A stretch of DNA of 64,000 bases from an uncultured Clostridia bacterium (GTDB lineage: Bacteria; Bacillota; Clostridia; Lachnospirales; Lachnospiraceae), in NCBI GenBank assembly GCA_948472945.1, contig CAOKVX010000014.1, positions 1-64,000 of the forward strand, given 5' to 3'. The stretch's first letter is position 1. Every line of letters begins with the position of its first letter. The notes beneath the pieces were generated by a model that saw only the letters and a program-made list of their open reading frames with translations, had not been told where the DNA came from and did no database searches. Shown piece after piece: positions 11,290-36,500 of this stretch. The position numbers and the translations under genes were made by a program.

Positions 11290-11335
11290 GTATTGTAATG
11301 CCAAATTGCAATACTATATTTAAGGAGATTATATA

Positions 11336-13380: not shown

Positions 13381-13953
13381 ATGAGCGATGATGTTAACAA
13401 CAATCAGGCACGCAAAAAGAGAGGGATAATCAGGGAGATTATAATATATGCCTTAATAATTATATTGTTTGTTTTTTTAATTCCCAGATATGTCTTTCAG
13501 ATGACTATAGTCGACGGTGAATCCATGACGGAGACGCTTCAGGATAAAGACAGGCTTTTTGTTGAGAAAGTATCGTACAGGTTCAGCGACCCTGACAGAT
13601 TTGATATCATAGTATTTTACCCATATGGACGCGAGGACCCTGACGATTACTATGTTAAGAGGATCATAGGGCTTCCGGGTGAGACGGTTCAGATAAAGGA
13701 TTCAGTCATATATATAAACGATGAGCCTTTGTCGGAAAATTACCGCAAAGAGCAGTACATGGCATATAACGGAATTGCGGGCGAGCCGCTTTTGCTCGGT
13801 GATGACGAATATTTTGTCCTTGGCGACAACCGCAACGGAAGCACGGACAGCAGGGACCCTGATACCGGACCTGTCAAAAGGGAAAATATCGACGGCAGGG
13901 TTGTTTTAAGAGTCTATCCGTTTGATGATTTTGGATTGATGACTGACAAGTAA
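13381..13953 (+). CDS. lepB: Signal peptidase I (first copy)
   Basis: 190 residues. It has an N-terminal membrane anchor at about 20-42, then box B with the catalytic serine in DGESMTETLQ, the catalytic lysine in DDYYVKRIIGLPGE, and the late box LGDNRNGSTDSRD. It cleaves signal peptides from secreted proteins at the outer face of the membrane. It follows rpoZ by 17 bases with a GGAGG site and precedes a second copy by 13 bases. Confidence 0.93.
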   Translation: MSDDVNNNQARKKRGIIREIIIYALIIILFVFLIPRYVFQMTIVDGESMTETLQDKDRLFVEKVSYRFSDPDRFDIIVFYPYGREDPDDYYVKRIIGLPGETVQIKDSVIYINDEPLSENYRKEQYMAYNGIAGEPLLLGDDEYFVLGDNRNGSTDSRDPDTGPVKRENIDGRVVLRVYPFDDFGLMTDK

Positions 13954-13966
13954 TGGAGGCTGGAAA

Positions 13967-14698
13967 ATGAGTTTGGAAAACGAAGATACAGATTCAGACA
14001 AAAATATAGGCGGCGGCATGCCGGAAACGGATTCTTTTAAAGAGCCCGTTTTTGAAAGTGGGAATACAGGGGAAAATGATGATTCCGAGAGCACAGTCCC
14101 GTCTGACAATCAAGATAACGGCTTAGGAGAAGCCTCAGAAGCTTCAGAGAACGTCAAAAAGAAGTTGTCGGCAAAGAGAATAGCGGTTGAAATATGTATA
14201 TATGCCGCAATGCTGTTCATATGTGTGTGCATTATACCTAAGTATGTTATTCAGCGGACCGTCGTTTCCGGTTCATCGATGCTCAATACGTTACATAATA
14301 ATGAAAGCATTCTTGTCGAGAAAGTTTCGTACAGATTTACCGACCCTGACAGATTCGACATTATAGTATTTTATCCGTACGGCCGTGACGACCCGGACGA
14401 TTACTACGTAAAGAGAATTATCGGACTTCCGGGTGAGACGATACAGATAATCGGTGATGATATATATATCGACGGTGAGGTGCTTGAGGAGAATTATGGT
14501 AAGGACCCAATTACGGACGAGGGAATAGCGTCTGAAGCTATAACACTTGCGGACGATGAATTTTTTGTTCTCGGCGATAACAGGGAAATTAGCGAGGACA
14601 GCAGGATATTTGGACCTGTAAAAAAGGTTAATATTGCCGGACATGCTGTGTTTAGAATATTTCCGTTTAATAAATTTGGACCTTTGACTAACAAGTAA
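13967..14698 (+). CDS. lepB: Signal peptidase I (second copy, with acidic N-terminal extension)
   Basis: 243 residues. All catalytic boxes are present: SGSSMLNTLHNN (serine), DDYYVKRIIGLPGE (lysine) and LGDNREISEDSR. It closely resembles the preceding copy over the middle (both contain DRFDIIVFYPYGR), so this is a tandem duplication. It differs by about 60 acidic, Ser-rich cytoplasmic residues before the membrane anchor at about 70-92. A terminator follows, closing the yicC-lepB run. Confidence 0.93.
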   Translation: MSLENEDTDSDKNIGGGMPETDSFKEPVFESGNTGENDDSESTVPSDNQDNGLGEASEASENVKKKLSAKRIAVEICIYAAMLFICVCIIPKYVIQRTVVSGSSMLNTLHNNESILVEKVSYRFTDPDRFDIIVFYPYGRDDPDDYYVKRIIGLPGETIQIIGDDIYIDGEVLEENYGKDPITDEGIASEAITLADDEFFVLGDNREISEDSRIFGPVKKVNIAGHAVFRIFPFNKFGPLTNK

Positions 14699-18168: not shown

Positions 18169-18197
18169 TTGAAATAAATATCTTTAAGTAATATAAT
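18169..18197 (+). promoter_or_regulatory. Promoter of the coiled-coil/EH_signature pair
   Basis: TTGAAA (18169-18174), a 17-base spacer and a perfect TATAAT (18192-18197). Transcription would begin near 18204, which argues against a start at 18212 and for the ATG at 18278 in the first gene. Confidence 0.7.
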
Positions 18198-18277
18198 AGT
18201 AATTAATAACAATGATAAGGAAAAACAGCAAACTTACAGGATTAAATTTCAAATTATTGCCGGAGGTTTTGCTTATA

Positions 18278-19150
18278 ATGAATAATAAAAAGGTTGACAG
18301 CATGGCTGACAGAATATCCGGTGAGATATCAGAAGGTCTTGCTGAAGTAATGAGACCTGTATTTGAAAACCTTGCACAGGAGATAAGTAAATTAGTCACA
18401 GGGCTTGAGTACAGACAGAAAGAAAACATGAAAATTATGGCCGATGCTTTTTTACAGGAGATGGCTAAGGCGTCAGGCAGGATGTTTGAGGGAATCACAA
18501 AGGATACTGTAGATATATGCAGGATGCAGTCGGACACCGTCAGGGAATTATCTGTTATAGTTGACAAGATGACAGAAGACAGGGCGGTGGTTCAGAAAAT
18601 AAGCGAGGACAACAGCAAAACGGCAGCTGAAATGTCTCGTCTTGTTAATATGATGGATGAACAGATTGGCAAGCTCGCAGGGATAAGCGAGGGCGTTGAA
18701 GTGATTGACAGGGATATTGCAGAGAGAATCAGCGCTGAGACGGGACTGTATTCAAAACTGGAGCAGAGCAGCAGCAATTGGGCGAAGCAGCTTGCAGAAT
18801 GCGGCGAGATGGTGGCTTGTACCTCGGAAGATGCAGCGGATAAGGTTAATGGGAGTGTGGCAAATGCCATAGATAATTTAGATAAATGTTCAGTAAAGCT
18901 TGAGGGAATAACAAGACAGATAGAAAGCTCGTACGATAGGATGCATAGAGATATGTATACGATGATGGACGAGTACAGAGAGACTGTTTCAAAAGATATC
19001 AATGATACATTCAGGGCGTTCGATGAGGGTATGTCTGAGATTGTGAGAGCGCTTGGAACAGCCGTCACAGATATAGCTGATGCAGCTGACAGAATTCCGC
19101 GTGCAATTAAAGGTAGTATTGATGCACTGCAGCAGTCTGTAAAACAATAA
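18278..19150 (+). CDS. Coiled-coil protein resembling the tail of ZorA/MotA-like proteins
   Basis: 290 residues, with no membrane segment. It is almost wholly alpha-helical with heptad patterns. The stretch EISEGLAEVMRPVFENLAQE, the later MADAFLQEMAKASGRMFEGI and the end ADRIPRAIKGSIDALQQ recall the long cytoplasmic tails that follow the MotA/TolQ domain in ZorA-type proteins, but the membrane motor domain is absent. GGAGG lies 11 bases before the ATG at 18278. An in-frame ATG at 18212 would leave almost no leader after the promoter. The gene has its own promoter and lies 12 bases before the EH_signature-like gene, so the two are probably cotranscribed. Function is unknown; the ZorA comparison is from memory and needs a profile search. 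Confidence 0.65.
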   Translation: MNNKKVDSMADRISGEISEGLAEVMRPVFENLAQEISKLVTGLEYRQKENMKIMADAFLQEMAKASGRMFEGITKDTVDICRMQSDTVRELSVIVDKMTEDRAVVQKISEDNSKTAAEMSRLVNMMDEQIGKLAGISEGVEVIDRDIAERISAETGLYSKLEQSSSNWAKQLAECGEMVACTSEDAADKVNGSVANAIDNLDKCSVKLEGITRQIESSYDRMHRDMYTMMDEYRETVSKDINDTFRAFDEGMSEIVRALGTAVTDIADAADRIPRAIKGSIDALQQSVKQ

Positions 19151-19162
19151 CGGGGTGATATT

Positions 19163-20362
19163 ATGTATACTGTTTTACATTTTAATGGTGCAGTTGGATA
19201 TATCACTGACATAGTAGACAGAAGAAAAGTAAACGCCGAAAAAAAGCCGGATTTGACAGATGAATATATTAAACTGTTTGAGATGGTTGCACATTCTGAC
19301 GGATTGAGGCAGCCCGGATGGGCATATTGTTTTAACTCAGGGGAGCTTAAACTTCTGGCAGAATATATTTTTATGAATGACAAAAGAGAGCCCGGCGAGA
19401 TTAAAGCTATGCTTTCGCCGTACAGGAGGCCGGGCGCTATAGAATTTATCAATATTTTATATAGCTTATGGCAAAATTACTATAAGAATAAAAATTACAT
19501 ACATTTGTTTAACATAATAAATGAATCCGATGAGCTTCGAACTTATTTTGGCAGGCAGTATGGCGTCGACACTTCAGATCTGGCCGGTTATCTTGCGGAT
19601 GGGAGGGCGCCGGAATATTTCAGCCGTATTGCCGGCATAGGCGGCAATGGTGAATACAACAACTATTGTGAGAAGCTTCAGAAGTCTGGGGTAGATGTAC
19701 ATTCGTTGCTATACAGCGAATGTGTAAATATGTATGCGCTTGTCTGTGACGGCAAGGCGTATATGAGGATGGGGACGGACACTGTAAAGGATTTTATGAA
19801 AAAACTTTGCCATGATGACAGAATTATTATGATGCAGAATATGCTGCGTGTTCTAGACAGTTTTCAGTTGAAAAAGTTTGTTCCGGTATTTCAGTTGTTT
19901 CGCGAGTATGTTGGCGACAAGAATTCAGAGTCTTACAGAGAGGTAATAGCTCCGTTTCCTGATGAAATCAGAAAGAAATATCTGTTATGGCAGAATCAAT
20001 ATTTTATATACAGTATCCTCGGCGACGGGGAAAAGGCAGAGTTTTGGATGGGTTATGCCGACAGGGGAACGATAACAAGACATGGTTATGCGAATATTCT
20101 TATTCTCTGTTTTGAAAGTTTTACAGCAATAGAATTTAAGAATGTCGATGCGGCATATTTCTTTAACATTATGTATTTTGAAGAAAACATTGAGCCTTAT
20201 ATATGTAATATGCAGACTGAACAGGATATCGAAGAGTGGATATATAACAATACCGAGTGGAGTTTAGATAAAACGCATCAGGACCACTGGCGCAAGGCGC
20301 ATATCGGTTCTTGGCAGCTTGATATGAAAGCATATATGAGCCGTAATCTTTTCAAGATATAA
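19163..20362 (+). CDS. Candidate EH_signature-domain (ZorC-like) protein
   Basis: 399 soluble residues; no signal peptide and no membrane segment. The C-terminal part shows the spacing I associate with the EH_signature domain of ZorC from Zorya phage-defence systems: EKAEFWMGYADRG, then AIEFKNVDAAYFF (candidate conserved Glu), then THQDHWRKAHIGSWQ (candidate conserved His, 48-51 residues later). ZorC is a DNA-associated factor needed for defence together with the ZorAB motor. The ATG at 19163 has GGGGTGA before it. The upstream gene encodes a ZorA-tail-like coiled coil, but no ZorB or helicase/nuclease gene is adjacent. The family call is tentative; otherwise it is an unknown protein. Confidence 0.55.
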   Translation: MYTVLHFNGAVGYITDIVDRRKVNAEKKPDLTDEYIKLFEMVAHSDGLRQPGWAYCFNSGELKLLAEYIFMNDKREPGEIKAMLSPYRRPGAIEFINILYSLWQNYYKNKNYIHLFNIINESDELRTYFGRQYGVDTSDLAGYLADGRAPEYFSRIAGIGGNGEYNNYCEKLQKSGVDVHSLLYSECVNMYALVCDGKAYMRMGTDTVKDFMKKLCHDDRIIMMQNMLRVLDSFQLKKFVPVFQLFREYVGDKNSESYREVIAPFPDEIRKKYLLWQNQYFIYSILGDGEKAEFWMGYADRGTITRHGYANILILCFESFTAIEFKNVDAAYFFNIMYFEENIEPYICNMQTEQDIEEWIYNNTEWSLDKTHQDHWRKAHIGSWQLDMKAYMSRNLFKI

Positions 20363-20481: not shown

Positions 20482-22188
20482 ATGGCAATTATCAACAGGC
20501 AAAAAAAAAGGATGGGCGACCTATTAGTGGGGGCGGGTATTCTCACGGAGGAACAGCTTATTAAAGCCCTTGAACTTCAAAAGGAGAAAAAACAAAAACT
20601 TGGAATTCTTCTTGTAGAGGAAGGATTCGTAGATGAAAAACAGATTGCATATACTCTGCATAAGCAGATGGGTCTGGATATTGTAGAGCTCGGCAAATAT
20701 AATGTTTCGCCGGATATATTAAAGTTAGTGCCCGACAGCACAATACTAAAAAAATCATGTATGATTCCGTTCGAGTTTGACCCGTTTGACTCGCAATATC
20801 TGCGCGTTGCGATGAGCGACCCGCTTGATATCATATCTATTGATGATTTGCAGGTTATAACAGGTATGATGGTGTCGCCTGTTATTGCAACGTCAAGCGA
20901 TATAATGACGGCGATTGACAAATATTACGGCAATGCTGAAAATCAGGCGGTTGCAGACCTCTACAACCGCGAGCGGGGCGTAGATGAAGATGAGGAAGAA
21001 CTGATAGACGAGACGGTGGAAAACGCGCCAATTGTCATACTAGTAAAGCGTATAATTGAACAGGGCGTGCACCGCAGGGCAAGCGATATACACATTGAAC
21101 CAATGGAGAACCGTATTAGGGTGAGATATAGGGTTGACGGCGTTATGCAGGAGGCCGGTTCATATCAGGTGAATATGCTTCAGGCGCTCATATCCCGAAT
21201 TAAGATAATCGGGGGAATGGATATATCTGAGAGAAGGAAACCGCAGGACGGGCGCATAACGTCTATAGTTGACAGGATTGAGTACGATATCCGTGTTTCC
21301 ATACTTCCAACTGTGTTTGGAGAAAAAGTCGTAATGCGACTGACATCAAAGCAGGCGCTGTCTAGGGATAAGAAGCTTCTCGGTTTTTCACAGGAAGAGC
21401 TGGCAAAGTTCGACAAAATGTTTTCCAATTCCAATGGAATCATACTTGTAACAGGGCCGACGGGAAGCGGAAAATCTACAACGCTGTACACTGCGCTTAG
21501 CGAGTTAAACAGCGAGCACGTCAACATCGTAACGGTTGAGGACCCCGTCGAGGCCAATATACAGGGAATTAATCAGGTTCAGGTCAACGTAAAGGCGGAT
21601 ATGACATTCGCGAGCGCATTAAGGTCAATTCTAAGGCAGGACCCTGACATAATTATGATTGGAGAGATACGAGATGAGGAGACCGCAAATATAGCCGTTA
21701 CCGCGTCCATTACCGGACATCTCGTTGTAAGCACACTTCATACAAACAGTGCCGCCGCATCAATAACGAGGCTGGCTGATATGGGGCTTGACAATTATCT
21801 CATAGCTGATTCAATGGTAGGGGTGATTGCACAGAGGCTTGCAAGAAGGCTATGCGTATGCAAAAAACCTAAGCAGGCAAATGAATTTGAGAAGAGACTC
21901 CTGCGGGTTAATGAAAGTGAAAATATTACGATATTTGAGCCCTGCGGGTGCGCTCAGTGCGGTAACACAGGATACCGTGGAAGAATCGGCGTATATGAAA
22001 TGATGACAATAACCAAAAAGATAAAAAATGTAATCTCTGCAAAGGGGACTACTGAGGACATAGAAAAAATTGCGGTACACGACGGCATGAAAACGCTGCA
22101 CGACAGTGCGGCAAGACTGGTGAGAGAGGGCGTTACGTCAATCGGTGAGCTGAGAAGGATAGTTTACAGCAACGACGAGGACATGTAA
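20482..22188 (+). CDS. pilB: Type IV pilus assembly ATPase PilB (GspE family)
   Basis: 568 residues. An N-terminal GspE-N/MshEN-type region (about 1-160) is followed by the hexameric ATPase domain with Walker A GPTGSGKST (about 325-333), the Asp box DPDIIMIGEIRDEETA and the His box ITGHLVVSTLHT. Near residues 458-495 lies the zinc tetracysteine of PilB/GspE (LCVCKK and CGCAQCGNTGYRG). It powers addition of pilin subunits from the cytoplasmic face. It is the first gene of a long pilus operon, about 120 bases after the EH_signature-like gene. Confidence 0.94.
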   Translation: MAIINRQKKRMGDLLVGAGILTEEQLIKALELQKEKKQKLGILLVEEGFVDEKQIAYTLHKQMGLDIVELGKYNVSPDILKLVPDSTILKKSCMIPFEFDPFDSQYLRVAMSDPLDIISIDDLQVITGMMVSPVIATSSDIMTAIDKYYGNAENQAVADLYNRERGVDEDEEELIDETVENAPIVILVKRIIEQGVHRRASDIHIEPMENRIRVRYRVDGVMQEAGSYQVNMLQALISRIKIIGGMDISERRKPQDGRITSIVDRIEYDIRVSILPTVFGEKVVMRLTSKQALSRDKKLLGFSQEELAKFDKMFSNSNGIILVTGPTGSGKSTTLYTALSELNSEHVNIVTVEDPVEANIQGINQVQVNVKADMTFASALRSILRQDPDIIMIGEIRDEETANIAVTASITGHLVVSTLHTNSAAASITRLADMGLDNYLIADSMVGVIAQRLARRLCVCKKPKQANEFEKRLLRVNESENITIFEPCGCAQCGNTGYRGRIGVYEMMTITKKIKNVISAKGTTEDIEKIAVHDGMKTLHDSAARLVREGVTSIGELRRIVYSNDEDM

Positions 22189-22329
22189 ATATTATCGTCA
22201 GTAATGCGTTAGAAACATTAATAGCATTGATGCAGTTTATGTGACAACATATATTTCAATATATACTGGTAATGTTTTTTATTAGACAATTATGATAAAA
22301 ATATGTAAAATTATTTGGGAGGAAATATA

Positions 22330-23385
22330 ATGATAACAATAAACCGGCTTCTTGAGGATGCTATGTCAAAAAAGGCATCTGATTTGCATCTTACGGTAGG
22401 GGTGCCGCCCAAGGTAAGGATATTCGGAAAACTGACGAGTCTGGATTATCCGAGCCTTATGCCGGACGATATGCACGAGCTGGCATATTCCATTTTACCT
22501 GAGAGCCTTGTCCTCAAATTTGAGGAACAGGGCGAGATTGATTTCTCTTATTCGATAAGGGGAGTTGGAAGGTACAGAGTAAACGTGTATCACCAAAGGG
22601 GCTCTTTGGCGGCGACTATTAGGCTTGTCGCTGAGAAAATCCCTACGGCCGATGAACTCGGAGTACCTAAAGCGGTACAGGAGCTGGTTAACAAAAAGAG
22701 AGGGCTTATTCTTGTTACAGGTCCTACAGGAAGCGGCAAAAGTACGACGCTCGCGTCGCTTATTGATATAATTAATACAAACTATCCATATAATATTATA
22801 ACACTTGAGGATCCGGTTGAGTATTTGCATAAGCACAAGAAAGCAATTGTCAATCAAAGGGAGATAGGTATTGACACGATGAGCTATCAGAATGCGCTTG
22901 TAGCGTCGCTGCGGGAGGACCCTGACGTCATTCTGATAGGGGAGATGAGGGATATCAACACAATTCAGACTGCAATTACAGCTGCGGAGACAGGGCATCT
23001 TGTCTTTTCAACGCTGCATACGGTTGGAGCGGCGCCTACGATAGACAGGATAATAGATGTATTCCCTCCTTACCAGCAGTCACAGATACGCAGCCAGCTT
23101 GCCATAGTGCTTGAGGGCGTCATATCACAGCAGCTTGTACCGAACATGGACGGCAATGGCAGAAAGGCGGCCTTTGAGGTTATGCTTGCAACTCCTGCGG
23201 TTCGAAACCTTATAAGGGAGTCCAAGACACATCAGCTTACATCTATTATGCAGACTAACAAAAGGATTGGCATGCAGACGATGGACGACGCGCTGTATGA
23301 ATTGTATTCACAGAGATATATTGACAGGGAGCACGCCCTGTCATATGCGCAGGACCCTGTAACCATAGGAAACAGAATGTTCTGA
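22330..23385 (+). CDS. pilT: Type IV pilus retraction ATPase PilT
   Basis: 351 residues. It opens INRLLEDAMSKKASDLHLTV, the PilT N-terminal domain, then Walker A GPTGSGKST (about 130-138), the Asp box DPDVILIGEMRD, and the His box AETGHLVFSTLHT. It carries the PilT-type AIRNLIRE-like helix as PAVRNLIRESKTHQL. The zinc-binding cysteines of PilB are absent, as expected for PilT. The ATG at 22330 follows GGGAGG and was preferred over the upstream in-frame start at 22315. Its presence implies pili that retract, so twitching motility or DNA uptake are possible. Confidence 0.95.
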   Translation: MITINRLLEDAMSKKASDLHLTVGVPPKVRIFGKLTSLDYPSLMPDDMHELAYSILPESLVLKFEEQGEIDFSYSIRGVGRYRVNVYHQRGSLAATIRLVAEKIPTADELGVPKAVQELVNKKRGLILVTGPTGSGKSTTLASLIDIINTNYPYNIITLEDPVEYLHKHKKAIVNQREIGIDTMSYQNALVASLREDPDVILIGEMRDINTIQTAITAAETGHLVFSTLHTVGAAPTIDRIIDVFPPYQQSQIRSQLAIVLEGVISQQLVPNMDGNGRKAAFEVMLATPAVRNLIRESKTHQLTSIMQTNKRIGMQTMDDALYELYSQRYIDREHALSYAQDPVTIGNRMF

Positions 23386-23403
23386 TTGATTGGAGGATAA
23401 ACC

Positions 23404-24615
23404 ATGTCAGATTTTACATATGTCGCAATTAACAGAGATGGAAAAGAGATTAAAGGAACAATCGAAGCCGGAGACATTAATTCGGCTAGAACAAAACTAA
23501 AATCTGACGGTTTGACTCCTGTAACTGTTAAGGCGGCGAGTATTTTTACAAAAGACATCAGTTTTGGAGGCAAAAAGGTTAAGACAAGGGATTTGAGCGT
23601 ATTTTGCAGGCAGTTCTCAAGCATACTAAACGCCGGAGTTACTGTTGTTGAGGCACTCAACATGCTTGCGGAGCAAACTGAAAACCCGGCGCTGAAAAAG
23701 GCTCTGTCAGAGACATGCAGTCTTGTCGAACAGGGAGAGACGCTGGCCGGAGCAATGGCAAAATACCCTAATGTGTTTCCGGTGATGTTAGTCACGCTCG
23801 TTGAGGCCGGAGAACAGTCCGGTACTCTTGAGATGTCATTTCAGCGTATGAGCATTCAATTTGAAAAGACTGCTAAGCTGCAGGGCCTTGTAAAAAAAGC
23901 TATGATATACCCTATAGTGCTCTTATGCGTTGCGGTTATTGTCGTCATAATAATGTCCGTGGCCGTAATACCGCAGTTTGTGGAAATGTTTGAGGATATG
24001 GGCTCTGAACTTCCTTTTATCACGCAGATGGTAATGGCCCTGAGTAACTTTCTTATACATAAGTGGTATATACTCATATTATGTGTTATAATACTTGTGA
24101 TATCTGTTAAGTTTGCGGGGAAAACAGAGGGAGGTCAGGCATTTTTCGGAAACCTTGCAATGAAAGCTCCGATATTTGGAGGCATGAATGTAAAGTCATA
24201 TTCCGCAAAATTTGCGCGAACGCTTAGTACGCTTGTAACCTCAGGGCTGGCATTATCTTCGGCTCTTGAGATTACGGCAAAGGCGATGAGCAATATACAT
24301 TTCAAGAGGGCCGTAGAAAAGTCGAAGTCTGAGATAGAACAAGGTATAAGCCTGTCGGTGCCGATTAGGGGTTCAGGGATATTCCCGTCGATGGTACCTA
24401 ACATGCTTGCAATAGGGGAGCAGACAGGTAATGTCGAGGAGATGCTTGATAAGGTTGCCGACTATTATGAGGAGGAAACTGAACTTGCAACCCAGAGCCT
24501 CACAGCTATGATGGAGCCGGTTATTATTGTAGTTATGGGTATCATAGTTGGTTTTCTCGTAATCGCAATGTATATGCCTATGATAAGCATGTACGGCGGA
24601 ATGGGTGATTTGTAG
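23404..24615 (+). CDS. pilC: Pilus inner-membrane platform protein PilC (GspF family)
   Basis: 403 residues. It begins SDFTYVAINRDGKEIKGTIE, the usual PilC opening. Two GspF domains follow (about 70-190 and 275-400), each ending in a membrane segment, with the repeated motif pattern ILNAGVTVVEALNML and LVTSGLALSSALEI. It connects PilB/PilT to the growing pilus base. It starts 18 bases after pilT with GGAGG. Confidence 0.94.
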   Translation: MSDFTYVAINRDGKEIKGTIEAGDINSARTKLKSDGLTPVTVKAASIFTKDISFGGKKVKTRDLSVFCRQFSSILNAGVTVVEALNMLAEQTENPALKKALSETCSLVEQGETLAGAMAKYPNVFPVMLVTLVEAGEQSGTLEMSFQRMSIQFEKTAKLQGLVKKAMIYPIVLLCVAVIVVIIMSVAVIPQFVEMFEDMGSELPFITQMVMALSNFLIHKWYILILCVIILVISVKFAGKTEGGQAFFGNLAMKAPIFGGMNVKSYSAKFARTLSTLVTSGLALSSALEITAKAMSNIHFKRAVEKSKSEIEQGISLSVPIRGSGIFPSMVPNMLAIGEQTGNVEEMLDKVADYYEEETELATQSLTAMMEPVIIVVMGIIVGFLVIAMYMPMISMYGGMGDL

Positions 24616-24700
24616 TTATTGATTAAACCTTTCAGTCATGGCTGGGGGAGGTCCTGACTAAAAAGTTTAAAATATAAAAAGAAAAAAGGAGATAATAATT

Positions 24701-25132
24701 ATGAAAAGAACTTTGAAAAGCAACAAAGGTTTCTCACTTGTTGAGTTAATTGTTGTTGTACTTATTATGGCTATCATAGCTGTAGCGCTTGCACCGCAGG
24801 TAATGAAATGGGTAGGACATTCACGTACTTCTACAGATGCAAACACATATGATACACTTTATGAGAACATTCAGCTTGCACTTGCAGACGAGAAGGTTTT
24901 GGCAGAGGTAACTGGTGATATTTCTTTCACAATATCAAGCACAGGAACTACTGCTACTTTAGGAACTGAATTTGAAAAAAAGATGAAAGAGATATGTGGA
25001 GATAGCTGGACAACTAAAGTTAAGAAGAAAGACTCGGCAGGTTCTGATTATGTTATCACTGTAAAATACAATGCAGGCAACATCAATGTTGACAGAACAA
25101 CAGAACCCTCAACTGATAAAGTAAAACAGTAA
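24701..25132 (+). CDS. pilA: Major type IV pilin (class III prepilin signal)
   Basis: 143 residues. The short positively charged leader MKRTLKSNKG ends at the prepilin cleavage site before FSLVELIVVVLIMAIIAV, with the methylated Phe1 and Glu5 both present. This is followed by a small globular domain rich in Thr and Asp. A strong AAAGGAG site and a hairpin directly after the gene fit a highly expressed subunit. It is placed between pilC and the prepilin peptidase, so it is taken as the main fibre subunit. Confidence 0.9.
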   Translation: MKRTLKSNKGFSLVELIVVVLIMAIIAVALAPQVMKWVGHSRTSTDANTYDTLYENIQLALADEKVLAEVTGDISFTISSTGTTATLGTEFEKKMKEICGDSWTTKVKKKDSAGSDYVITVKYNAGNINVDRTTEPSTDKVKQ

Positions 25133-25161
25133 TTACCCGTGGTGGCAAGTAAAGCCTTAAT

Positions 25162-25191
25162 ACACAGGAACTCCCCCGTTCCTGTGTGGTT
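25162..25191 (+). terminator. Leaky terminator or attenuator after the major pilin
   Basis: ACACAGGAAC (25162-25171) and GTTCCTGTGT (25178-25187) form a perfect 10-base-pair stem with a six-base loop, followed by only GGTTTT. The short T tract suggests partial termination, which would raise pilin over downstream genes. Confidence 0.65.
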
Positions 25192-25212
25192 TTGGAGAAA
25201 GCAGGAAAAACA

Positions 25213-25965
25213 ATGATTTTTACGGTTTTAATGTACATAATAATATTTTTATATGGAATTGTGATTGGCAGCTTTCTCAATGTATGTATTCTGCGAATCC
25301 CTGAGGGTAAAAGCATTGTGACAGAGAGGTCGCACTGTATGTCGTGTGGTTATGTGCTAAAGTGGTATGACATGTTTCCGGTATTTTCTTATCTGTTCCT
25401 TGGAGGGAAATGCAGACAGTGCGGTAATAAAATCTCAGTTCAGTATCCGCTGATTGAGACTGCAAACGGATTCTTGTGGGTTATAAACTTTGCCTGTTTC
25501 GGAGTTACATGGGATATGCTGCTGATATGTTTTTTGTTTTCTTCTCTTTTGACATTGAGCATAATTGATTTAAGAACGTATGAGATTCCCTTTGGAATAA
25601 ATGTGTTTATCGGTATTTTGGGTTTAATTAGAATGTCCATTGACTACCGTCATTGGAGCCAGTATGTCATAGGTTTTTTTGCGGTAAGCATCCCTCTGCT
25701 TATAATATTCCTTGCAACGAAAGGCAGGGGTATCGGAGGCGGTGATGTTAAGCTTATGGCGGCCGCAGGACTGTTTTTGGGATGGCAGTCTGTCTTGCTT
25801 GCATTTATTCTCGGGTGCTTTTACGGAAGCGTTATCCATATAGCAAGAATGAAAATAGCAGGCGAGGGAAGGATTTTGGCAATGGGTCCGTATCTGGCAA
25901 TGGGTATAGCGACTGCGCTGGTGTTCGGCGACAGAATAATAGAGTGGTATATTTCGATGTTTTAG
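25213..25965 (+). CDS. pilD: Prepilin peptidase and N-methyltransferase PilD
   Basis: 250 residues with about eight membrane segments. The N-terminal domain carries the two cysteine pairs (SHCMSCGYVLKWYD and GGKCRQCGNKIS) and IGSFLNVCILRIPEG. The two catalytic aspartates of the A24 aspartic protease are in SIIDLRTYEIP and GIGGGDVKLMAAAG. It cleaves prepilin leaders after Gly and methylates the new N-terminus. The ATG at 25213 is chosen; a GTG nine codons upstream lies inside the hairpin of the preceding terminator. Confidence 0.94.
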   Translation: MIFTVLMYIIIFLYGIVIGSFLNVCILRIPEGKSIVTERSHCMSCGYVLKWYDMFPVFSYLFLGGKCRQCGNKISVQYPLIETANGFLWVINFACFGVTWDMLLICFLFSSLLTLSIIDLRTYEIPFGINVFIGILGLIRMSIDYRHWSQYVIGFFAVSIPLLIIFLATKGRGIGGGDVKLMAAAGLFLGWQSVLLAFILGCFYGSVIHIARMKIAGEGRILAMGPYLAMGIATALVFGDRIIEWYISMF

Positions 25966-26213
25966 ACTTTTGTCTATATAAGATTTGTATATTTGTATAT
26001 TGCCGGTTCAGTTGGTTATTTTTTCTTAGTATATGGTTTGGAGTACATTACACCGGTTTTGAATGCGGAGATATGTGTCGCTGTTGTGAATTGCGAACTG
26101 TATATTGGGCAGAATTGATGGAACTGTAATTGTGAAGAAATGAGGCAATTCGTTGACATCATAAGTGTTACATGCAGCTAGAAAAGTGCCGTCAGGCAGG
26201 AAAAGAGGAGAAT

Positions 26214-27893
26214 ATGGCGATATCAAAGGTGGTCAGTATAGAAATAACTGACTTTGTCACCAGAGTTTGCGAGGTGAGTTACGGTAAAAAGATTGCGACG
26301 GTGTACAATACGGTGATGTTTGAAAATCCTGAGAATACCGTTGAGGACGCTTTTATAGCCGAACGCTCTGCCTATGTTCCGGAGTTAAAAAAGCAATTAA
26401 AGGAAGCTAAGATTAAGTGCAGGGATGCGGTATTTGTTTTGGCAAGCAACAAAATATTGAGCCGTGAGATTACAATACCGGATATGAAAGATAAGCTTAT
26501 TGCGGATTATATTGAGGGGGAGAAAAACCAGTATTTCCCTATGGACATATCTGAGCATAAGATTACATACTGTATAGCGGACAGAAATGAACAGAAAAAA
26601 GAAATTAAGCTTATCGTATATGCGGCGCCTATTGAGCTTATTAAGAACTATCAGGAGCTTGCGAAAGAGCTCGGTGTCAAGATAGTAAAACTTGACTATT
26701 TTGGCAATGCGGAGTATAAGCATCTTCAGAATAATAATTCCAATTCGAGACTTGACTTTTATCTTGAGATTAATGAGAGCAACACTATGTTTACTATTCT
26801 TGAGAATGGCAAATTTGCTCTGCAGAGAAATATGAATTTTGGCGTGCTTCAGCTTGTGCAGCATCTGATTGACGAGGGCTACTACGGAACAATTGATGTG
26901 AAAGACGCGATGCGAAAGCTTATATCTGAAAGGCTTATCTTTGGCTCATATTCGGAGATGGTTGAGTATTCACCGGTTGACGAGGCTGATTCTAAGCTGT
27001 ATGAGTGCAAAAAAAGGATTACTGATGCGGTAAGGCCGCTTATATCGGGAGTGGCGAGGGTTCTTGAATATTATAATAACAGGAATAAGGATCTTTCGAT
27101 ATCTGAGATATTTGTCGGGAGCTGTGGCTCTGAAATAGGCGGTATTCTTGAAATTATTACGAGTGAGTTTGAGGGAGTCAAATTTAAAAGGCTTGCGAAA
27201 CTGCCGGGAATTAAATATTCAAAGGCAAATGAATTTATGGTAAACAGGAGCACCGAATTCATGTCATGTATAGGTGCGTCCCACATTTCCGGCGTGGACT
27301 TTAACATACGTGAAGAGTCCGCCGAAAAACAGTCGCAGACGTTTGCGCTGCTCGCACTTTTACTTGCGTTCGCAGCGGCGGGCGCGCTGGTGGGAGTTCC
27401 TATGTTTAACTATTATATGGAGATTAACAGGCAGGAGTCGCTTAGCAAAAAGATAAGCGAGCTTGCGGAATTCGATAAGCTTAAAATTGACAGGGATAAA
27501 GGAACTGCTGATTATGAGGAGCTAAGGAATTTTTCAGAATCGACGGTTACGAACAATCAGGGATTCAACACTGTGCTCGCCAAGATTGAATCGCTTGTGC
27601 CTTCAAATACGGTTGTGTCGTCGGTTACTGCCGACGAAGAGGGCGTGACGTTTGTAGTAAGTACTCCGTCTAAAGAGGAAGCCGCAAAGCTTTTAATACA
27701 GCTTGAACAGATTGAGGAATTCGAATCGGTGACGGTTAACAATATTACCGAGGAATATGATGACGAGACTTCTGTCAGGTATGAGACATTTACCGTACTG
27801 TGCTCGTATTTTAAACCTGAGCCTACACCGACGCCTGCGCCGCCGGATAATTCAGGAGCGGATGGAGATAGTAACGCGGAGGGAGGCGAGTAA
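26214..27893 (+). CDS. PilM-PilN fusion protein
   Basis: 559 residues joining two alignment-complex proteins that are usually separate. Residues 1 to about 355 are an actin-fold PilM domain (SKVVSIEITDFVTRV at the start, GSCGSEIGGILEI in the second lobe). A membrane segment at about 378-398 is followed by a PilN-like periplasmic-type domain with coiled coil and NTVVSSVTADEEGVTF. It ends in a Pro-Thr/acidic tail. PilM binds the cytoplasmic N-terminus of PilN, so the fusion keeps partners together. The ATG at 26214 has GAGGAG. The stop is 1 base before the pilO start. Confidence 0.85.
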   Translation: MAISKVVSIEITDFVTRVCEVSYGKKIATVYNTVMFENPENTVEDAFIAERSAYVPELKKQLKEAKIKCRDAVFVLASNKILSREITIPDMKDKLIADYIEGEKNQYFPMDISEHKITYCIADRNEQKKEIKLIVYAAPIELIKNYQELAKELGVKIVKLDYFGNAEYKHLQNNNSNSRLDFYLEINESNTMFTILENGKFALQRNMNFGVLQLVQHLIDEGYYGTIDVKDAMRKLISERLIFGSYSEMVEYSPVDEADSKLYECKKRITDAVRPLISGVARVLEYYNNRNKDLSISEIFVGSCGSEIGGILEIITSEFEGVKFKRLAKLPGIKYSKANEFMVNRSTEFMSCIGASHISGVDFNIREESAEKQSQTFALLALLLAFAAAGALVGVPMFNYYMEINRQESLSKKISELAEFDKLKIDRDKGTADYEELRNFSESTVTNNQGFNTVLAKIESLVPSNTVVSSVTADEEGVTFVVSTPSKEEAAKLLIQLEQIEEFESVTVNNITEEYDDETSVRYETFTVLCSYFKPEPTPTPAPPDNSGADGDSNAEGGE

Positions 27894-27894
27894 T

Positions 27895-28542
27895 ATGGGT
27901 AAACTTGATGCAAAACAGTCGCGTATTGTAATAATGCTTCTTGTTGCGGCGGTTATTATAGTAGCTTTCAGGTTCGGCTACACCACTATAACAGAAAAGA
28001 CTGACGAGGTTGCTGCGGAGAATGAAGTGCTCAGCGATAAGCTTTCCGAGCTTGAGTATGTCAGGGATAATGCAGAGCAGTTCAGGGCTGAACTTAGTGC
28101 GGCTTTGAGCGGAATAGAAGCCGTGAAACAAAAATTTGCCGCAGATATAAAGCCTCAGAAGTCGATAATGATGCTGAGGGAGCTTGAGACAGCCGCAGAT
28201 ATGAATATAATCAATATAGGATTTAACGAAACAGAGAACATATTTACATCTTCATTTGTAAATGAGGCCGGCGATCCGGCGATCGCCAACAAAAGCGTTC
28301 TAAATATAAGCTACAAGACATCATATGAGGGATTGAAGAAATCTTTGGAGTTTATAAACAGCTACGGTGATTATATGAATCTTGAGAGCATTACATCGTC
28401 ATATAATCAGGAGACGGGACTGCTTATGGGAAATATGTCAATTAACATGTATTCGCTCACGGGACTTGGGAAAATGTACGAGAATCCGCGGGTTGACGGA
28501 ATTGGATTATCAAAGGACAATATATTCGGCACCATGAGGTGA
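27895..28542 (+). CDS. pilO: PilO-like pilus alignment protein
   Basis: 215 residues. One membrane segment (about 13-30), then a short coiled coil (about 38-60) and a ferredoxin-like domain: the PilO layout. It begins one base after the PilM-PilN fusion. Partnering with the PilN part to make a membrane complex that aligns PilC with the ATPases is the known family role; sequence identity to PilO is weak, so the call rests mostly on layout and position. Confidence 0.75.
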   Translation: MGKLDAKQSRIVIMLLVAAVIIVAFRFGYTTITEKTDEVAAENEVLSDKLSELEYVRDNAEQFRAELSAALSGIEAVKQKFAADIKPQKSIMMLRELETAADMNIINIGFNETENIFTSSFVNEAGDPAIANKSVLNISYKTSYEGLKKSLEFINSYGDYMNLESITSSYNQETGLLMGNMSINMYSLTGLGKMYENPRVDGIGLSKDNIFGTMR

Positions 28543-33463: not shown

Positions 33464-33512
33464 ATAAGTTAATTATTTTGTTGTTGGTTTCATGGATATA
33501 AGGAGTGGTTAT

Positions 33513-36500
33513 ATGAAATTGTTTAAGGTATTTAGTGTAAAAAATGGAGCGGTTAAAAAGTTCAAACAAAACAAAAAGAAAATAATTCCGGCATTCTTTG
33601 TATTCATGATTATATTTTTGGTTGTGTCAGCAGCCGAGAGCATTTTATATTTCAGGGACAGCAAAGTAAACGCTGCGGGCTCTGTCGTGTCCACGGACGG
33701 AAAGTTTGTAATACCTGAATGTAATGAAGATTCGGAAAAGGGAAGCAAGGATAATCCATTTGTCGTTCTTGAAATAGTGCCGGGCGCAGCAAGCGCGTCT
33801 TTCGGATATCTTGTCGGGGGACAGGAGCCTATAGACATTGAAAAGGCGTTGAAAGAGGACCCGTCGGCTAAGGATGTGCTTTCTAAATATGTCGATATAA
33901 ATGAGGACGGAACAGGATATACAAATACGGACTTATTTAAGAAGCTTGGAATCGGTCTTGCCTATAAAGACAATGATATAGCCAACGGCGAGGATATATC
34001 AAAGTTTGAGTTTGGAGGCTGGTTTCTTGAAAAACAGTGTGTCAACCGTGTTGACGCCGGCATGAGACTCTCAAAGGACACTACGGTATACGCAAAATGG
34101 GTTACGGTATATCCAACCGACGAGGTCAATCAGGCGGCTGGAAAGAACGAGACCTATAAGCCTCAGTATACAGTAAAATTTGACGCCAACTGTGGCGGCG
34201 ACGGGGATGGCGTTGTCGGCATGCCCGAGGATATTGCTCATATAGAGCAATACACATCGCTTGTGGAGCCGCTTTCCGTGCCAAGGCTTAAAGGAAAGCT
34301 TTTTGCCGGCTGGTATACCGACAGGGAATGTACCTCGAAATATTCATTTAACAGCCGTGTAGAGGGCGACGTTACATTATATGCAAAATGGAATGAGCTG
34401 CCTGATATAGTTTATAGCCTGCAGTTTGACGCAAACCTGCCTGAAGGAATGTCTGCGGACAGTGTAAGCGGTATGCCGGGTACAATAGAGAATTATGCAA
34501 AGAACGGTATGAGCTTTGATTTTACCGACGTCACCCCTGTGAACGAGCCTTCGGTTTCCGGTTATTTGTTTACGGGATGGTATTATGACAGCGCATGTAC
34601 GCGTCCATTTAATTTTACAGAAATCGTGCCGGATGACATTGCCGGAGTAAATGTTACCCTTTATGCAGGGTGGGCTAAGGAAGGGTCTGAGTCGTATACC
34701 CTGTGGTTTGACGCAAATGAGCCTGCCGAAGCTGTAGCAGAGGCGAAGCAGTATAAGGATTTTTTGGATACTGACGCTTCGGGAAAGGTTATAGGGCTTG
34801 AGGACGCTCTTGCGGGGGAGCCTGTTCTTGAGGGAAATATATCGAAGAAAGTTAAAGACTATAATGTAAAGGTTATAACTACTACTCCGGAAGACTTTTT
34901 TGAGTATGGATATAATTATTACATACAGGGCGGGGGTAATCCTCCTATTCTCGGAAAAAATAAATATAAGGACAACAATGTGTTACTTATAGACAGGGCC
35001 GACATGATATTTATAAGCGAAGGTCTGTACAATCAGAATATACAGAGTCAGGATACGGATAAGCAGCTTATGCAGCTCTTCAGGAAGTATAAAAATACAG
35101 ATATGTGGTATGACAGGGGATATAATGATGCGGATAATGCGCCATATACTGATATAGACTACAATAATTGCAGCTTTAAGCCTGAGCCTATGTTTTTTGG
35201 AATGTATAACGGAATGTTTTCCATTGATTTTGACTGGGAAACAACTATGAGAATATTCAAAAAAACAACGGTTGGAAGTAAGGGAGACGGTTCTGACGCT
35301 GTCCCGATTATATATGATGTAAAAAGTCTGGGCTCGTGGCTTCAGGACGATAATAAGCAGGAGGTAACATATACCACGAGCGACGGCAAAGTAGTTACGG
35401 TTGAAGGCGGAAGGATTCTCGGAAAAACCTCGCGTGAGAATACGTTTAAACTCTACTTAATGACTCAGCAGATGGACCCTCTTACAGTCTATAACGCATA
35501 CATAGAGGGTAAATCACAGTATGGTAAGATATGTGTCGACGGTGAACACGCAGGTTGTTTTGAATATTATGACCCTGAAAATGGTACGCATAAATATACT
35601 GATTTGTGGTCGTTTAAGACGTTGCTGCCTGTTGAGGCTATGACCGAGGAGACATGGAAAGAGTATTATAAGCATTGTCTCTGTTATATAGACAACAATA
35701 TTAATCCGGACGGAGTCGACCCTACGGGAATCTCGCAGTCGCTTGGGTTCAACGATTATCCGGCTATAAATAACAGTACGGTAAATAACGGTATACTTGC
35801 GGCAACGACTGCCAACTCGACGCTTGTTCTGGAGTTAATCAACAGAAGCAAGGTTACGCCTGACGAGGGTATGAAAGATTTTATACCAAAAGATGTTGTC
35901 GATGCGGAGGGTTACAATATGACGAATGCGTTATATTACCTTTTGCACGGCGACGGGGCGCCTAAAAAATATGAGGGCGACGTCAGGGTGCTTGACATTG
36001 AGCCTTCGGACGGCGACGGCTCGCATAAGGACAGTTCATTCTGGTTTTGGTACATAAGCAAATATATCCGTAATTTCTCGGGTAAGGTAAGCGTCACAAA
36101 CACTACTACATGGGAATTTGCCGGAAATATAGACGACCTTAACAGCATGTACGATATAATATATGTAGGCGGCAATATTGGGGCTATGAATGACAATCTA
36201 AAAGATATGATGCCGAAAAATTCAAAAGACAGCATATATCTTTACGCACACAACGGGGCTGTTATGGACAATGTAAAGCTCACAAACAGGGCGGGCAGTC
36301 TCGGAGATACGACGGCCGACTCAGCTGTCACAAAGTTTATAGCGTCCGGAAATGATTTGACAAAAACTAAATATAACGACCTTCTTCAGTTTGCCGAGGC
36401 CGGTTATCCGATAGTGTTTGGAAGAGAGCTGATTAACGGTACATTCATCAAAGGCAATTTATCGGTAAGCGATATAAACACAGATGCCGTTGACACAGCA

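Follow-up and report, generated by a model that had tools for sequence, protein, structure and literature searches.

The window analyzed here is a 64,000-nucleotide stretch from an uncultured Clostridia bacterium of the Lachnospiraceae (assembly GCA_948472945.1, contig CAOKVX010000014.1, positions 1 to 64,000 of the forward strand), and it contains two same-strand genes, here called A and B, that directly precede a type IV pilus (T4P) operon. A first-pass annotation had placed two open reading frames at this location and likened their products to the cytoplasmic tail of ZorA and to the EH_Signature domain of ZorC, both components of the Zorya defense system. The two frames were found as described, and the pair and its segments are:

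18169..18197, + strand: promoter-like site TTGAAA-17-TATAAT before A, consensus match 11/12
18278..19150, + strand: gene A, encoding a 290-residue soluble coiled-coil protein, ZorA-tail-like and lacking a membrane domain
18311..18505, + strand: N-terminal conserved segment of A (approximately residues 12-76), matching the segment that follows the membrane domain in relatives
18938..19147, + strand: C-terminal tip of A (last 70 residues), common to ZorA-like tails and the proposed docking site of B
19163..20362, + strand: gene B, encoding a 399-residue ZorC-like/EH_Signature-like protein
20126..20164, + strand: E block of B (residues 322-334, AIEFKNVDAAYFF, with E324), facing VEF..NACYYY of ZorC
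20288..20329, + strand: H block of B (residues 376-389, WRKAHIGSWQLDMK, with H380), facing HxGxWEY of ZorC

A and B are separated by a spacer of 12 bases. GGAGG precedes the start of A at 18278, and an alternative in-frame ATG at 18212 would extend the protein to 312 residues. The pair had been credited with a promoter of its own and the listed site does exist, but promoter-like sites are about as common in shuffled sequences (11.1 ± 3.2) as in the region itself (14), and no terminator was predicted between B and pilB, the first gene of the T4P operon; the pair may thus equally well head the pilus operon. The pilB start codon lies 119 bases past B in the window, and the corresponding gaps in related loci are 68 bases in L026 (with the pilB start taken at 11290), 21 in L027, 48 in L028 and 37 in L029. 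When the window was compared to the related locus L025, the ratio of non-synonymous to synonymous differences (pN/pS) was 0.23 for A and 0.30 for B. Synonymous sites were close to saturation, and the ratios point to purifying selection on both genes. Together with the recurrence of the pair in all six genomes encoding B, these ratios establish the coding of A and B as real. Both change faster than other genes of the same genome pair, as pN/pS was 0.02 for groEL, 0.10 for the DUF6106 gene and 0.14 for the YicC gene, and pN was 0.17 for A and 0.21 for B, compared to 0.01-0.08 for those three. Against L026, pN was 0.39 for each of A and B and 0.13-0.28 for five T4P genes. The non-synonymous distances (dN) of A and B were similar in every comparison (0.19/0.24 for L025, 0.54/0.55 for L026 and 0.83/0.76 for L029), as fits a physical pair.

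The A protein is coiled-coil-like throughout, and its highest 19-residue hydropathy was only 0.76. No membrane segment was found in the four A proteins with a complete start (window, L025, L026 and L029) or in the two that are cut, in agreement with the earlier description of a coiled coil without a membrane domain. The resemblance to ZorA tails was partly upheld at the profile level: when the C-terminal 70 residues of the six A proteins were searched against 5027 PADLOC models at E up to 1, each matched ZorA models only, with a best E per tip between 4e-5 and 0.0024, and 15 of the 18 matches ended at most 40 positions from the C-terminal end of the ZorA model. The A tips were further compared to the tips of ten longer relatives (described below), giving P 1.7e-11 with controls at 0.003 or weaker. 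At the other end of the protein, the N-terminal segment of four A proteins matched the ten relatives at P 9.9e-8, compared to 0.0012 to 0.13 for mid-tail, tip and reversed controls. Against single relatives the same segment gave P 2e-4 to 0.14, with L104A, L105A and L110A alone providing no support. Taken as a set, the two ends of A match the two ends of the relatives' tails, and A therefore looks like a tail without its motor.

By profile comparison, B is a distant homolog of ZorC/EH_Signature proteins. As true EH_Signature references we used L015 and L016, from the same class as the window; L015 is found in a ZorA-ZorB-ZorC-ZorD operon that appears full by eye and L016 between ZorB-like and ZorD-like genes, and both are recognized by the ZorC models of PADLOC (best E 1e-14 and 1e-16, respectively). 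The profile of the six B proteins matched the two true ZorC proteins at P 9.2e-6 (1.4e-6 in the reverse direction), whereas 13 unrelated families from the same loci gave P of at least 0.17 against B and at least 0.16 against ZorC. E324, H380, G382 and W384 are invariant in all six B proteins, including that of the window. When B and ZorC are aligned jointly, IEFKN-VDAAYFF and HIGSWQLDMKAYM of B stand opposite VEFAESGNACYYY of L015 and HRGNWEYDFTAYL of L016, the E block preceding the H block at the C-terminal end of B. The conserved Glu and His blocks pointed out earlier are thus present; their spacing in the window protein is however 56 residues and not the 48-51 claimed, with 48 and 51 being the spacings in L015 and L016.

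The likeness of B to ZorC, although upheld between profiles, reached no family cut-off. The 399-residue protein, for which the first-pass annotation had pointed to an HMM (hidden Markov model) search against PF15611, gave no EH match, and a PF15611/EH_Signature search of its own genome was likewise without a match. With HMMER, the window B matched no PADLOC model and its sole Pfam match was Gb3_synth, below the cut-off (E 0.011). Sub-threshold EH_Signature matches were obtained for two of the six B proteins (best E 0.013), the window B not among them. The Pfam EH gathering score of 27.5 bits was reached by none of the six B proteins and none of the seven B-like proteins of distant loci that were scanned, and the PADLOC ZorC models were matched by none of the six B proteins and none of five B-like proteins tried. 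Against the PDB, the B profile produced chance matches only (E 0.24 and 0.56), and the solved ZorC structure 8r68 came up only when true ZorC served as the query (E 7.6e-4). The B family matched six T4P-linked B-like proteins at P 6.4e-15 and four without T4P linkage at P 6.7e-6, and the T4P-linked set matched ZorC at P 6.7e-8. A caveat concerning the controls is that alignment A6 matched its own reverse at P 1.6e-4 over 44 columns near the profile end, which we read as an alanine/serine-rich extension of one row; the B alignment (A4) matched its own reverse at P 0.017.

All six genomes with B encode A directly 5' of it and pilB directly 3' of it, the pilB start of G303 being found on the same contig (L038). 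The earlier placement of the pair between groESL and the pilus operon therefore holds on the pilB side in every case but on the groEL side in only three (window, L025 and L026), as L029 has other genes upstream and the contigs of L027 and L028 start inside A. The pilus operon had been named as a neighbor, but is rather the constant partner. Its core genes in the window are:

20482..22188, + strand: pilB (T2SSE 1e-129, MshEN 9.8e-14), the first T4P gene
22315..28542, + strand: pilT, pilC, pilin, prepilin peptidase, fused pilM-pilN and pilO-like genes (T2SSE, T2SSF, N_methyl, Peptidase_A24, PilM_2 + PilN)

Pfam confirmed six of the seven T4P genes submitted from the window, and the pilO-like gene, which had no match, was named by eye and place. 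Strong B matches were found in 4/10 genomes of the genus and 2/299 of the family, with the own genome counted in both. Weak genus matches in G299 (E 0.08) and at a second place in G302 (E 0.14) were dropped as chance, as were four family fragments (E 4e-4 to 5e-3, 16-20 bits) and two class fragments (15-16 bits). An alignment-based B scan of public genome contigs returned five contigs of Lachnospiraceae/Lachnoclostridium metagenome-assembled genomes, of which L028 was new and four had already been found. Scanning with B as a single sequence found nothing among public genome contigs, 72,556 plasmids or viral contigs; ZorC had no match in plasmids, and viral contig scans with the ZorC and B alignments were also empty.

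A PilB tree of 42 rows, built by a quick method with support from the Shimodaira-Hasegawa-like approximate likelihood ratio test (SH-aLRT) only, placed the six A-B operons in one clade of seven rows (SH-aLRT 97). The seventh row, G299, has the operon without the pair, is sister to G302 (95) and is nested within the clade, which looks like a loss of the pair. No A-B pair was seen by eye in the C-termini of the upstream frames at 28 other pilB loci of the family; one of these, L046, has only about 220 bases upstream, and L058 was excluded from both survey and tree owing to a Walker motif mismatch.

Some further features of these regions were noted in passing. PilM and PilN are fused into one 573-residue protein in the window (26172-27893; PilM_2 and PilN domains). 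Further pilin-like genes were recognized in the operon by eye, and the pilus gene run ends with an 1800-residue protein (33492-38894) that has surface-protein-like repeats, also by eye. Tandem signal-peptidase-like genes (13381-13953 and 13967-14698, by eye) directly precede groES. Genome G039 (L042 and two more places) has three separate high-scoring pilB-like matches, one of them partial.

When 366 genomes from the same class as the window were screened with a profile of the A tip, 52 of them matched at E 0.1. Eleven places, including the window, had E < 1e-3, and the ten non-self places together with a weaker one in G620 (E 0.002) constitute the distant set L101-L111; a second G741 place, without a locus designation, was included in the examination, and places at E 0.005 to 0.1 (L084-L100 and others without a locus) lay outside the examined set. 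Places L082 and L083 seemed unrelated when read. All 11 loci encode a protein that has the tip at or close to its end, with a B-like gene coming next (8) or separated from it by ZorB (3), and this includes all ten non-self places at E < 1e-3 (three after ZorB). Each of the 11 B-like proteins matched the profile of the others at P 4.3e-12 or less, with reversed controls at 0.12 or more; the three from the f44 family (L102, L103 and L108) were compared to the profile of the other eight only. In ten loci the A-like gene has an intact start, the gene of L111 being cut by the contig end, and each of the ten proteins begins with a domain containing two to four hydrophobic segments and continues as a long tail that matches ZorA models (best E 8e-16 to 8e-5). 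The N-terminal domains of the three f44 proteins matched the motor domain of true ZorA at P 2.9e-7 (3.2e-4 for all ten), and nine tips matched the true ZorA tip at P 1.5e-6 with controls at 1.1e-3 or weaker; L110A, whose tip lies short of the C-terminal end, was excluded from the latter comparison. The ZorB proteins of the f44 loci scored E 1e-62 to 2e-66 in PADLOC and P 1e-48 against true ZorB. In the f44 B-like proteins, D replaces E and no H-x-G-x-W was found in the alignment. Seven of the 11 loci are linked to T4P genes, in differing layouts:

L102, L103 and L108: ZorA-like, ZorB and B-like genes, followed by pilB and other pil genes
L104: preceded by pilin-like genes and followed by pilD-pilB-pilT
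L101: pilD before, pilT-like gene after
L106: pilM-pilN-pilO before
L111: pilT-pilB after, convergent

Ten pilus genes of these loci were submitted to Pfam, which assigned all but one to pilus or type II secretion families; the remaining names were given by eye. The differing layouts argue for function rather than for shared descent of one locus. The upstream neighbors of L102, L103 and L108 are partly in common by eye, as for a fixed chromosomal place. The A-like/B-like pairs of L107 (3000-5854) and L109 (4792-7946) are beside a gene for a fabD-type acyltransferase, and no pilus genes are present in the stretch read. A third setting was seen in L105 (7449-10339), where the pair is found beside fur and ABC transporter genes, and in L110 (7966-11593), where by eye it is beside Fur-like and transporter genes.

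No further Zorya component was found beside the pair, and the statement that no ZorA motor, ZorB or ZorD/ZorE is adjacent was correct. The A-B pair includes no ZorA motor, A being without a membrane segment. A profile of the relatives' membrane domain found no match at E 0.1 in G000 or in five relatives tried. This profile recovered all four positive controls, with G668 outside the profile, but missed the true ZorA proteins of G599 and G632, its one weak G599 match being a receptor-like protein; it is thus blind to canonical ZorA, and a motor elsewhere was judged by PF01618 only. In G000, one protein exceeded the PF01618 cut-off; it is encoded next to a MotB-like frame, and we took it to be flagellar. 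No ZorB was seen by eye beside A-B in the six stretches, the search being confined to these and not extended to the rest of the genome. Neither ZorD nor ZorE was found beside the pair, the adjoining genes being T4P genes, and no helicase or nuclease gene was seen by eye in the six stretches of 3 to 21 kb.

The reading we favor, with doubt and confidence about in balance, is that A-B may constitute a T4P-associated Zor-like accessory module, motor-free in this organism and homologous to the ZorA tail and ZorC. It builds directly on the profile-level homologies, the tail-only form of A, the gene order, the T4P linkage and the inheritance with the operon. We infer from these that A and B are in contact, that they are located at the pilus base, and that their role is regulatory rather than defensive; the pair would then probably be an adaptor or regulator at the pilus base. 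In the fuller form encoded by other Clostridia, a ZorA-like membrane protein, accompanied by ZorB in three loci, would bear a long cytoplasmic coiled-coil tail, the tip of which would work with the B-like protein encoded just downstream, often in a T4P cluster. The A protein of the window would be such a tail set free, with its N-terminal segment, which lies next to the membrane domain in relatives, attaching to the pilus base instead of to a membrane domain of its own. The tip of A could then hold B at the pilus base, where B may act on the pilus machine or report its state with respect to assembly, retraction or load.

Several results weigh against this reading. The matches of whole A to many coiled coils, such as ATG17_like at 7e-6, prove little, and the A profile also matches a chemotaxis receptor (1.8e-5). 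One true ZorA matched the A tip only weakly (P 9e-4, best control 0.0044) and did not match the N-terminal segment (P 0.017 or weaker); this speaks against A as a direct derivative of ZorA, the longer T4P-type relatives standing closer to it than canonical ZorA does. The four non-T4P B-like proteins matched ZorC at P 0.001-0.004 only. The pair is rare (4/10 in the genus, 2/299 in the family), four of the 11 distant relatives are without a T4P link (L105, L107, L109 and L110), and G299 keeps the same operon without A-B, so that the pair is not needed by the pilus there. Any contact that A makes with B, or that one of the two makes with a Pil protein, is a prediction.

That the Zorya likeness merely reflects composition bias and convergence, A being a generic coiled coil next to an unrelated protein, would account for the promiscuous coiled-coil matches of whole A, for the failure of HMMER to connect the window B to anything but Gb3_synth, for the Pfam EH cut-off staying out of reach of six B and seven B-like proteins, and for the ZorC models passing over six B and five B-like proteins while matching both true ZorC proteins. 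We consider it very improbable, as none of the 13 unrelated families approached B (P 0.17 or more), the reversed and mid-tail controls for A were far weaker than the matches, and the tip profile led to B-like neighbors at 10/10 places. A role in DNA uptake, in which B would bind DNA imported by the pilus while A holds it at the import site, the pair thereby serving natural transformation, is improbable as well. ZorC is described in PMC12904381 as working with incoming DNA, and the operon has pilT and the pilin-like genes recognized by eye, but DNA binding by B is putative and the relatives without T4P linkage would require another role.

A pilus-coupled defense is unlikely, though less so than either of these. 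Here A-B would be a motor-free Zorya variant guarding the T4P as an entry port, with pilus-dependent phage or incoming DNA perturbing the pilus base, A signaling and B engaging DNA like ZorC. Both EH residues are kept in all six B proteins and absent from the three ZorB-containing T4P forms; the pair evolves faster than its neighboring genes (L025) and than five T4P genes (L026), and its presence is patchy with one loss. On the other hand, no helicase or nuclease gene was seen by eye beside the pair in the six stretches, and the pair is kept at one place with the pilus operon, together with which it descends, rather than being located in an island, and has no match in 72,556 plasmids or in viral contigs. 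Zorya is described as a ZorA5-ZorB2 motor with a tail important for defense and a model of ZorC and ZorD recruitment (PMC11890865, PMC12904381), and the former source presents ZorB peptidoglycan binding, the ZorA tail and ion flow as all mattering for defense; only the tail is present here. The first-pass annotation had offered either a motor-free offshoot of Zorya defense or a housekeeping relative from which Zorya parts were recruited. The second, or its reverse direction, fits better, since the pair is retained at the front of the T4P operons of a single clade and its relatives are often found in T4P clusters. Of the two outcomes that the first-pass annotation had named as refuting, one is thus present, as the neighborhood consistently belongs to a different process, that of the pilus, and the other is not, the homology to EH proteins being real.

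Compared to type I Zorya (ZorA-ZorB-ZorC-ZorD), the pair shares a B homologous to ZorC with the EH blocks aligned, a tip with some resemblance to the ZorA tail end, and the order of a tail gene followed by an EH-type gene, but it differs in having pilB next instead of an adjacent motor domain, ZorB or ZorD, in being inherited with the pilus operon, and in B falling below the family cut-offs. In the f44 ZorA/ZorB/B-like sets, the tail ends match A and the B-like proteins match B, each as part of a set, and pilB is directly next; unlike the pair, they have a membrane domain and ZorB, and their B-like proteins have D for E and lack H-x-G-x-W. Like EH_Signature (PF15611), B has the E and H blocks in order at its C-terminus, with two of six B proteins matching below threshold, but no B exceeds 27.5 bits and the E-H spacing is 56 compared to 48 and 51 in two ZorC proteins. 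The operon is of the pilB-pilT-pilC-pilin-pilD-pilMN-pilO type and A-B directly precedes pilB in 6/6 cases, but the pair is accessory, as the G299 operon is without it and it was not seen upstream of pilB in 28 other family loci.

Among the matches listed from open-licence PubMed Central (PMC) literature, titles and abstract openings mention no pilus-linked Zorya-like module. The parts are Zorya-like, and the pilus setting and the motor-free form are undescribed in the literature searched. The finding of related sets with and without a motor in the pilus operons of other Clostridia suggests that Zor-like parts also serve, or came from, pilus machinery. A broader proposition, which we find somewhat unlikely, is that Zorya and the pilus share a signaling core, a tail-plus-EH module at the T4P base driven either by its own ZorAB motor or by the pilus as motor, with Zorya having arisen from it or the pilus having captured Zorya parts; the window would then encode a sensor coupled to the pilus, which has its EH signature intact and may still act on incoming DNA.

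To our knowledge, both what ZorAB motors sense and the origin of Zorya are open questions in the field. The OmpA-type proteins that head T4P operons at L102:7065-7886, L103:4294-5088 and L108:3056-3862 score as ZorB in PADLOC, and since the ZorB models reach 1e-62 to 2e-66 on these three pilus-operon proteins, some "Zorya" calls may be pilus modules. The ZorA, ZorB and ZorC relatives in pilus operons make the partnership of tail tip and EH protein accessible in a cellular machine whose output can be measured as piliation, twitching or DNA uptake, and the motor-free form found here isolates that partnership.

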